From the NCBI GenBank assembly GCA_019096065.1, contig JAGUCH010000001.1, positions 4,526,001 through 4,590,000 of the forward strand: DNA of 64,000 nt, read 5' to 3'. The first letter of the stretch is position 1; each line of letters starts with the position of its first letter. Shown here one piece after another: positions 37,319 to 38,602 of the stretch. The notes under the pieces are model-generated. The model was not told where the DNA came from. It was given only the letters and a program-made list of their open reading frames with translations, and made no database searches. Source of the DNA: Paracyclopina nana (lineage: Eukaryota; Arthropoda; Copepoda; Cyclopoida; Cyclopettidae). The position numbers and the translations under genes are program-made.

Positions 37319-37324
37319 TTTATT
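37319..37324 (-). terminator. Single poly(A) signal of the OST4-GTF2H5-CDC26 array
   Basis: AATAAA on the minus strand, 38 nt after the CDC26 stop. Neither inter-ORF gap (2 and 4 nt) could hold a poly(A) signal, so this is the only well-placed one for all three reading frames. Confidence 0.75.
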
Positions 37325-37361
37325 TTTAATCGAACGAAAAACGCAATCAAGGAAACGGACT

Positions 37362-37589
37362 CTATGATTTGGGAGATGGATCAAAGCCAATTCTTCTTCG
37401 GATCACTTCAGACCTCATTTTGGCAGTGTTGGGATCGTCAGCACTCATGCCGCTGGAGTCGTTGTTGCCGAAAAACGACCCGTTCGAAGTGGCATTGCCT
37501 TTCCTCAATTCCATTTCTCGCTTCGTTTGCTCGTATTCTTGGATGTCATCGAGCTTGAGCTCGATGCGAGTCGGTTCTCGACGTTTCAT
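37362..37589 (-). CDS. CDC26: CDC26, anaphase-promoting complex subunit
   Basis: 75 residues, single exon. The N-terminus MKRREPTRIELKLDDIQEYE closely matches the conserved CDC26 start (M-x-R-R-x-P-T-R-x-E-L-K-L-D-D-I), the segment that inserts into the TPR groove of APC6/CDC16 and stabilises it. The C-terminus RRRIGFDPSPK also fits the family. The start is 4 nt after the GTF2H5 stop (TAA, AAGC, ATG). A at -3 gives acceptable context. There is no room for its own promoter unless that lies within GTF2H5, so it is probably translated from a shared mRNA. It is the last ORF in the array, and AATAAA follows 38 nt after its stop. Confidence 0.93.
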   Translation of the reverse strand: MKRREPTRIELKLDDIQEYEQTKREMELRKGNATSNGSFFGNNDSSGMSADDPNTAKMRSEVIRRRIGFDPSPKS

Positions 37590-37593
37590 GCTT

Positions 37594-37861
37594 TTAATCG
37601 ACGACAGGCACTGATATTTTGTCCATTAAATCGTCGATCGTTTCTTGTAGTTGCTCGAGGGCGTCCTCGGATATGAAAATGCGACGCTCGTCCAAGTCTT
37701 GAATAACAAACTTGGAGCCCAAAACAAGCTTTTCGTCGAGATGCAACAAAAACTGCTTCATAACAGGATCACACTCAACTAAAACCTGGAATAAGAAATA
37801 GTGAGCCAAGTTTTTAAACGACCATCAAGGCAAAACTTACTCCTTTGGTGACGTTGACCAT
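37594..37861 (-). CDS. GTF2H5: GTF2H5 (TTDA / TFB5), TFIIH p8 subunit
   Basis: Two exons, 37861-37841 and 37785-37594, with a 55-bp intron (GTAAGT to TTATTCCAG). The product has 70 residues; human has 71. The sequence [25 protein letters not shown], then KFVIQDLDERRIFI, is an unmistakable match to TFIIH subunit p8, which stabilises XPB/p52 and is needed for nucleotide excision repair and basal transcription. The seven-codon first exon matches the family start. The ATG lies 2 nt after the OST4 stop (TAA, AC, ATG) in a good context (A at -3, G at +4). CDC26 starts 4 nt after its stop. Confidence 0.97.
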
Positions 37862-37863
37862 GT

Positions 37864-37965
37864 TTACTTGGAATTGGCGGCGACAAAGTGGTACAAAACG
37901 ACGAGAAGAAACAAAAAGATTCCCATCAGGTTGGAGAACAGGGCGAGTTGCATATCAGAAATCAT
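37864..37965 (-). CDS. OST4: OST4, oligosaccharyltransferase small subunit
   Basis: 33 residues: [20 protein letters not shown], then [13 protein letters not shown]. This is the whole OST4 family pattern, a single transmembrane helix beginning M-I-x-D-x-Q-L-A and ending L-Y-H-[YF]-V-A; human has 37 residues. OST4 stabilises the catalytic STT3 subunit of the ER N-glycosylation complex. It is too short for most ORF finders. The start is CCAAAATGA (A at -3). The reading frame is open far upstream, but only through the hAT element and without family resemblance. Its stop codon is 2 nt before the GTF2H5 start, making it the first ORF of a three-gene array. Confidence 0.95.
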
Positions 37966-38019
37966 TTTGGCAGCTTTCTCTCTCAAGTGACTCCGTTCAA
38001 TTTGCCGGAATTCTTCACT

Positions 38020-38602
38020 GTAAAATTCAGTGTTGCCAACGGATTTTTTGGCTTCCGACCACTTTTTTTCGCAAAAACGACCACTTTTGCGACCACAATT
38101 TTTCGATGAATCCAAAAACGACCAATTTTGCGACCAGTAGCCAAAAAACAGCAAATAAGGTGTATTTTTTGGCCCAAAATTGGCTTTTTTGCTTTCTGTT
38201 TTGTGTTTGGAGGCCTGAATAGTGATCCAAAACAAAAAAACAAACATATTTGCATAAAAATGACTTTTTTCAAAAAGCCACTTTATGGGCGGAGCTTAGT
38301 TCCACAAACTGGCTGTTCGCTAACGTAAAAAAAGAATTTTCGTGTTTATGCTTTTTTCAATTATTTTTGCTAATTTTTGGATTTGAGTTCATGGCCTACA
38401 TCAAATTCATCAATGCAAATCTACAAATTTCCAGGTTTTTTTTGAAAAAATGGCAAAATTAAGCTATTTTTCCGTATTTTTTTGCACTTTCGAAAACGAC
38501 CACTTTTGCGACCACCGACCACCAAAAATTTTTCCGACTAAATTAACTCAAAAACGACCACATTGGTCGTTTCCGACCACCGTTGGCAACACTGGTAAAA
38601 TT
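38020..38602. repeat. 8-bp target-site duplication around the hAT element
   Basis: GTAAAATT occurs at 38020-38027 and again at 38595-38602, directly abutting the two ends of the terminal inverted repeats. An exact 8-bp duplication is the hallmark of hAT transposition. Confidence 0.92.
38028..38594. mobile_element. Non-autonomous hAT-superfamily transposon (567 bp)
   Basis: The terminal inverted repeats are perfect over 15 bp: CAGTGTTGCCAACGG at 38028-38042 and its complement CCGTTGGCAACACTG at 38580-38594. The CAGTG start, the GTTGCCAAC core and the 8-bp GTAAAATT duplication identify the hAT superfamily. No transposase can be read in any frame, so it depends on an element elsewhere. Subterminal copies of CGACCAC cluster near the left end (38056, 38078, 38090) and the right end (38497, 38509, 38516, 38555, 38574), all on the plus strand, like transposase-binding repeats in hAT elements. 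It sits 62 bp upstream of the OST4 start codon, within the leader or promoter of the tricistronic array. Confidence 0.92.

Follow-up and report, generated by a model that had tools for sequence, protein, structure and literature searches.

Animal messages normally do not encode several proteins. Kanamori et al. are said to have described in 2010 an insect tricistronic mRNA from which, by the title of the report, three proteins are made through context-dependent scanning. The accessible part of an insect survey gives 44 conserved-peptide uORF (CPuORF) or dicistronic genes and describes Tfb5, in flies as well as in Bombyx, as a conserved uORF of CG31917 (PMC2276209), while in the available sections of another paper the other ORF of the Tfb5/CG31917 transcript is Dmp18/Znhit1 (PMC9514664). 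In green algae, OST4 is ORF 1 of OST4_FAM32A, and a 14-nt inter-ORF is found among the chlorophyte bicistrons used; as far as the accessible text goes, algal bicistrons have weak ORF 1 starts and a shortage of AUGs, and mutation supports mainly leaky scanning (PMC11892635). The operons of Ciona, Oikopleura, nematodes and chaetognaths are resolved by spliced-leader (SL) trans-splicing, according to the available parts of two reports (PMC7986045, PMC12460157).

The OST4-GTF2H5-CDC26 array lies in this order on the minus strand of the window, by which we mean the whole 64-kb stretch of DNA that was analysed; its features are given on that strand throughout. The first cistron, the OST4 ORF (37965-37864), encodes 33 aa and starts in the context GCCAAAATGA. 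It matches Pfam Ost4 (PF10215) above the cut-off (E 1.8e-15), and its best PDB match is an annotated OST4 chain (E 4.9e-11). A 2-nt gap, AC (37863-37862), leads from the OST4 stop TAA to the ATG of the second cistron, GTF2H5, which starts in the context TAAACATGG and is 70 aa long in total. GTF2H5 consists of exon 1 (37861-37841; codons 1-7, MVNVTKG), a 55-nt GT-AG intron (37840-37786; GTAAGT...TTCCAG) and exon 2 (37785-37594; codons 8-70 and the stop TAA), and the exon junction, after codon 7, is 23 nt downstream of the OST4 stop. Its Pfam match is Tfb5 (PF06331; E 1.2e-25, above cut-off) and its best PDB match an annotated GTF2H5 chain (E 1.3e-20). The GTF2H5 stop TAA is followed by a 4-nt gap, AAGC (37593-37590), and by the third cistron, the CDC26 ORF of 75 aa (37589-37362), for which Pfam ANAPC_CDC26 (PF10471; E 4.8e-09) was above cut-off and the best PDB match was an annotated CDC26 chain (E 1.3e-11). 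Behind CDC26 stand two presumed poly(A) signals, recognised as consensus words only: ATTAAA (37330-37325) and then AATAAA (37324-37319), whose first base is the 38th nt past the CDC26 stop.

The sequence-only reading had proposed three complete ORFs of 33, 70 and 75 codons on one strand, gaps of 2 and 4 nt, and one AATAAA 38 nt past the last stop. The sizes, the strand and both gaps were borne out, but GTF2H5 is split by an intron, and the AATAAA is accompanied by the ATTAAA directly before it and by another ATTAAA across the GTF2H5 stop (37598-37593).

Searches of the 92-Mb genome (10 contigs) gave one match each for GTF2H5 and CDC26 and two for OST4. The single matches make it unlikely that duplicated loci have been joined, and chance or an assembly artefact was rejected as unlikely on the same grounds and because the geometry recurs in nine other arrays. 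The three-gene array is real. Its conserved ORFs for unrelated proteins lie close together on the same strand, as expected of an arthropod polycistronic gene. No relatives of GTF2H5 were found in one scan each of the viral_contigs and genome_contigs sets. The second OST4 gene (C1:11760344; L002 1502-1600) encodes 32 aa with 44% identity (Pfam Ost4, 2.6e-09), and a 49-aa frame with a hydrophobic stretch begins about 10 nt past its stop. This downstream frame has no Pfam or PDB match, and the copy was not counted as a second array.

Upstream of OST4, 62 nt (37966-38027) without an ATG separate its start from a transposon; they presumably form the 5′ UTR and perhaps also the core promoter. The transposon (38028-38594, no strand assigned) is a non-autonomous DNA element with 15-bp perfect inverted ends, CAGTGTTGCCAACGG, and is a neighbour rather than a cistron. 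Its 8-bp target duplication is GTAAAATT (38020-38027 and 38595-38602); the two halves agree at 8/8 positions in the window copy, as do the respective duplications of nine of the 11 other near-full-length copies. We take the element to be hAT-like from the length of this duplication. At least 12 near-full-length copies, the window's included, are present, the others being 91-97% identical to the window copy. Copies also lie just upstream of MANBAL and of one ORF without a Pfam match, which we take to be UTP3. Elsewhere in the genome, telomere-like TTAGG-type repeats were seen at the end of C1 and the start of C2, GGCCT repeats at the start of C1 (C1:1-3000) and other repeats at the start of C10. 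Rfam and tRNA scans of the 64-kb window gave one tRNA-Met only, and a bantam-like match (57.9 bits) was below the cut-off of 61. The TTAGG-type repeats and the bantam-like match point to a likely arthropod.

A partial survey of the genome revealed nine further arrays, which together with the window array make ten arrays with 14 tight junctions of 1-21 nt (1, 1, 1, 1, 2, 4, 4, 6, 6, 8, 9, 19, 20 and 21 nt). The first set consisted of genes that are dicistronic in flies, namely MOCS2, PIG-P, Snapin and Znhit1 (the partner of fly Tfb5), a choice biased towards success. MOCS2A and MOCS2B are separated by 6 nt, and the TRAPPC2-PIGP-ATXN10 array has gaps of 20 and 4 nt. The Snapin/Pallidin family has two loci; Pallidin and WWOX are 1 nt apart, and no tight partner was seen at the Snapin locus. 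The zf-HIT search returned six loci, four of them in tight arrays, one in a looser pair of INO80B with a SNRNP27-like gene (25 nt) and one at which no close partner was noticed. The tight arrays are RNF7-ZNHIT2 (1 nt, present twice as a duplicated block), ENY2-TRAPPC6-ZNHIT1 (1 and 6 nt) and ZNHIT3-PRELI (8 nt). MANBAL-NUDIX (9 nt) was found among the loci retrieved for the transposon.

The LSM family was sampled by gene size, not by known dicistrony, and all 17 matches were examined at 1.3 kb each. Two lie in tight arrays, LSM2-TXNL4A (21 nt) and TMEM42-like-NAA38-DNLZ (1 and 19 nt), and two have looser neighbours, NUS1-LSM8 at 51 nt and PAXBP1-like-LSM5 at 79 nt; at the other 13, no neighbour was noticed within 80 nt. 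A kinase-like ORF on the same strand about 170 nt downstream of LSM6 was not counted as a pair. LSM2 and TXNL4A/DIM1 are both spliceosomal tri-snRNP proteins, so some arrays may group related functions.

The 14 junctions include the two of the window and leave out the duplicate RNF7-ZNHIT2. The RNF7-ZNHIT2-DPH1 block occurs twice (L044, C4:8420148; L047, C3:6776550), with 90-97% identity across the coding parts compared; the RNF7-ZNHIT2 junction TAAAATGG is kept in both copies, and the possible DPH1 start codon differs between them. ZNHIT2>DPH1, with 41 nt in L044 and 14 nt in L047 and an uncertain start codon, was classed with the looser pairs. Mechanical ORF-gap histograms mix real genes with wrong-strand frames and were too noisy to be used as statistics; only recognised pairs were used, most members of which were then checked by Pfam. 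In nine other 10-kb segments, no recognisable tight pair was noticed by eye in such a noisy list, without a formal test. Gene names within families are presumptive, and so are PAXBP1, SNRNP27 and TMEM42, for which the Pfam match was absent or below threshold.

From its layout, the array is likely to be expressed as one tricistronic OST4-GTF2H5-CDC26 mRNA, as the sequence-only reading had held. This is the best reading because gaps of 2 and 4 nt offer no space for a 3′ UTR, a promoter or an acceptor between the cistrons, and because equal geometry recurs in the nine other arrays. One promoter upstream of OST4 would drive all three genes, and the product would be a capped, once-spliced and polyadenylated mRNA of very roughly 0.6-0.7 kb that is tricistronic during translation. 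The ATTAAA that overlaps the GTF2H5 stop is a possible internal poly(A) signal; it makes a shorter OST4-GTF2H5 mRNA conceivable and counts against a single mRNA form. Alternatively, GTF2H5 and CDC26 could each be transcribed into a capped mRNA of their own from separate promoters within OST4 and GTF2H5, with the closeness of the genes resulting from a compact genome. Initiators could reside in the 55-nt intron or in coding sequence, but a start site for GTF2H5 would have only about 60 nt of the OST4 ORF at its disposal, downstream of the third in-frame ATG. As the pattern also recurs in the nine other arrays, with gaps as small as 1 nt, and the nine 10-kb segments viewed by eye offered no comparable pair, we consider such promoters very improbable.

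A second way to single-gene mRNAs would be an operon pre-mRNA that is cut at acceptors within the preceding ORF, either by SL trans-splicing, the alternative raised by the sequence-only reading, or by alternative cis-splicing. According to the accessible parts of the respective papers, SL trans-splicing has been reported for calanoid copepods (PMC4664967) and SL sequences were trimmed from amphipod data (PMC5111886). We searched the genome with the amphipod SL pattern (one mismatch allowed) and the calanoid SL pattern (three allowed) and found no match to either, which weighs little against SL splicing since leaders are lineage-specific. Acceptors were scored with a model trained on nine cis-introns only, whose leave-one-out scores range from 1.7 to 9.4; the GTF2H5 intron, itself one of the nine, has an acceptor score of 5.6. 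Within 60 nt before the downstream ATG, an intron-grade acceptor was present at none of the 14 tight junctions, and the best AG scored 0.0 or less at every one. Among 861 control windows in downstream coding sequence, 80.5% were at or below 0, so that 14 of 14 has P ~0.05. By this measure the tight junctions resemble ordinary coding sequence.

At the OST4 array, the OST4 ORF contains just one AG, which scores -9.3 where true acceptors score 1.7 to 9.4; ahead of CDC26, the best AG within 60 nt reaches -5.4. Apart from the acceptor of the GTF2H5 intron, none of intron grade lies between the starts of OST4 and CDC26, and the best acceptor-like AG in the 62 nt upstream of OST4 reaches -2.2. The missing acceptors argue against spliced leaders and alternative splicing at this array and for one tricistronic mRNA; moreover, an upstream 3′ UTR would not fit into 2 or 4 nt. 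We therefore regard the cutting of an operon pre-mRNA as improbable here. Leader or hidden-5′-exon splicing may occur elsewhere in the genome. Three of the four looser neighbours have a strong acceptor before the next ATG, scoring 4.8 (25 nt), 8.4 (51 nt) and 6.0 (79 nt), and a score of 4.8 is reached by 1.9% of the control windows; the fourth pair, ZNHIT2>DPH1, has none (-4.0). In these three pairs the acceptor lies directly before the ATG and no donor was noticed in the gap, which makes them candidates for trans-splicing or a hidden 5′ exon. A good acceptor within 40 nt before the first ATG was also seen in the array-first genes MOCS2A (4.3), TRAPPC2 (4.6) and ENY2 (6.2), but not in OST4 (see above), LSM2 (1.4) or MANBAL (-0.3).

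For the downstream cistrons of a tricistronic mRNA, the sequence features make us lean towards coupled termination-reinitiation as the main route. Ribosomes would start at the OST4 AUG and terminate at its UAA, and part of them would escape full recycling and reinitiate at the GTF2H5 AUG two bases downstream. The same step would be repeated at CDC26 across four bases, and the protein yield would fall from the first to the third cistron. The stop codon and the A-rich gap also supply a good -3 base to the next start. At all 14 tight junctions a purine stands at -3 of the downstream start (12 A, two G), compared with A or G at about 54% of window ATGs overall. The stops are TAA (8), TGA (4) and TAG (2), an A follows the stop at 11 of the 14 junctions and UAA-A-AUG recurs. 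In the last 22 nt before the stop, no AUG begins at any of the 14. As in TURBS-type sites, the starts of the array are next to a stop, at 2 and 4 nt and without overlap. A TURBS-like signal was not apparent, as TGGGA showed no enrichment (two occurrences over 14 x 90 nt compared with 1.0 expected); one of these sits 59 nt upstream of the OST4 stop. Published work describes reinitiation past long ORFs as presumably very rare and puts its yield, in a human case that was measured, about 82-fold below the first product (PMC5972666). The idea in the sequence-only reading that such mRNAs are tolerated when leading ORFs are short proved too narrow, as PIGP (128 codons) and TRAPPC6 (159 codons) stand upstream of 4- and 6-nt junctions.

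GTF2H5 and CDC26 could instead be reached mainly by leaky scanning past the earlier AUGs of the tricistronic mRNA. This is the main route of algal OST4_FAM32A, and the algal study also names Drosophila stoned and Snapin as cases of it (PMC11892635). From the OST4 start to before the CDC26 start there are six AUGs, each in the frame of its own ORF. For GTF2H5, 2.8 out-of-frame AUGs are expected and none is present (P 0.022), so that some leaky scanning may take place at this array; ENY2, TRAPPC6 and LSM2 likewise have none, as under leaky scanning, and OST4 has 0 with 0.0 expected. The -3 base is A in four of the six array-first starts seen (C in MOCS2A), compared with 12 of 14 downstream starts. 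The OST4 start, CAAA-AUG-A, agrees with the fly consensus CAaaAUGg at -4 to -1 and differs from it at +4, where its A is the same as in AAaaAUGa, the predominant uORF context, which is called weaker in the accessible part of the insect survey (PMC2276209).

On the other hand, CDC26 lies behind all six AUGs, two of which have a good -3 context (CAAA-AUG-A and AAAC-AUG-G), and nine out-of-frame AUGs are present in one TRAPPC2 exon alone. Over 14 upstream ORFs or exon parts we counted 39 out-of-frame AUGs compared with 38.0 expected from synonymous codon choice (P 0.62), a count that includes INO80B of the looser 25-nt pair, omits the last exon of TMEM42 and enters several upstream ORFs as one exon only. 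Without INO80B, the tight set of 13 has 35 compared with 36.3. The control of ten downstream ORFs had 72 compared with 60.0 expected, so that the upstream ORFs are somewhat lower by comparison. No depletion of out-of-frame AUGs near the stop was found either (3 compared with 4.2 in 13 ORFs). Since there is no overall depletion, ribosomes need not scan through the upstream ORFs, and this favours reinitiation over leaky scanning, which we think rather unlikely as the main route. What the sequence-only reading had proposed, one mRNA translated by termination-reinitiation, is thus retained as the best reading for the mRNA and as the favoured one for its translation.

Finally, internal ribosome entry could drive the downstream cistrons. 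A 10-bp hairpin (window 37594-37640) ends at the GTF2H5 stop codon, but the stretch around this stop folds only slightly better than shuffled sequences (z -1.5; 16 of 200 at least as well). All 200 shuffles of the OST4-GTF2H5 stretch fold better than the stretch itself (z +2.93), which lends no support to an IRES, and we hold internal entry to be highly improbable.

Taken further, the arrays may reflect a genome-wide system in which small housekeeping genes are expressed from polycistronic mRNAs with coupled translation. This proposal has five parts: stop-start junctions of a UAA-A-AUG-like type; their crossing by reinitiation, even past ORFs of 100-160 codons; a possible second class of looser pairs with a splice acceptor between the genes; partners that would have been reshuffled between lineages; and the recurrence of OST4, GTF2H5, ZNHIT1, PIG-P and MOCS2 in such mRNAs. 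Because the survey was partial and sequence-based, we offer the genome-wide claim tentatively and would not yet call it probable. At least ten natural stop-start arrays, together with looser and mostly acceptor-bearing pairs, provide a testable internal contrast in one genome. If the proposal is true, OST4 (ER glycosylation), GTF2H5 (TFIIH) and CDC26 (APC/C) share a promoter and a fixed translation order, and gene prediction based on one ORF per transcript would miss such genes or merge them.

In our literature search, which covered mainly papers outside subscription, OST4, GTF2H5 and CDC26 were not found together, and in the titles and abstract starts of the arthropod operon and polycistronic literature, again mostly non-subscription, we found no comparable genome-wide class. 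The closest case is comparable in part: as in Drosophila Tfb5-Dmp18, GTF2H5/Tfb5 is an ORF of a polycistronic arthropod mRNA, here a predicted one. However, Tfb5 is upstream of Znhit1 in Drosophila, whereas GTF2H5 is here ORF 2, between OST4 and CDC26, and ZNHIT1 lies in a separate array behind ENY2 and TRAPPC6. The insect CPuORF/dicistronic genes, as far as the available part of their description shows, likewise have two real proteins per mRNA, and MOCS2A/B and PIG-P are common to both sets. In contrast to that set, the partners of PIG-P are here TRAPPC2 and ATXN10 instead of a Pcc1-like ORF, and at Snapin no tight partner came to light.

OST4 is ORF 1 both in the algal gene and in the present array, apparently by convergence; unlike in green-algal OST4_FAM32A, the partner and the lineage are different and AUGs are not depleted overall. 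Co-directional genes are closely packed here as in the operons of Ciona, Oikopleura, nematodes and chaetognaths, but, compared with what the available parts of those reports describe, the stop-to-ATG gaps are 1-21 nt and lack an acceptor. The start at or close to a stop is shared with viral and cellular termination-reinitiation (TURBS, GAD UGAUG), whereas the TURBS and GAD cases in the accessible text overlap (PMC5972666), and here there is neither overlap nor TGGGA enrichment. The OST4-GTF2H5-CDC26 array belongs with the known arthropod dicistronic genes. New in comparison with these are its three cistrons, the gaps of 2 and 4 nt, the new partners and the presence of at least nine sibling arrays in one genome.
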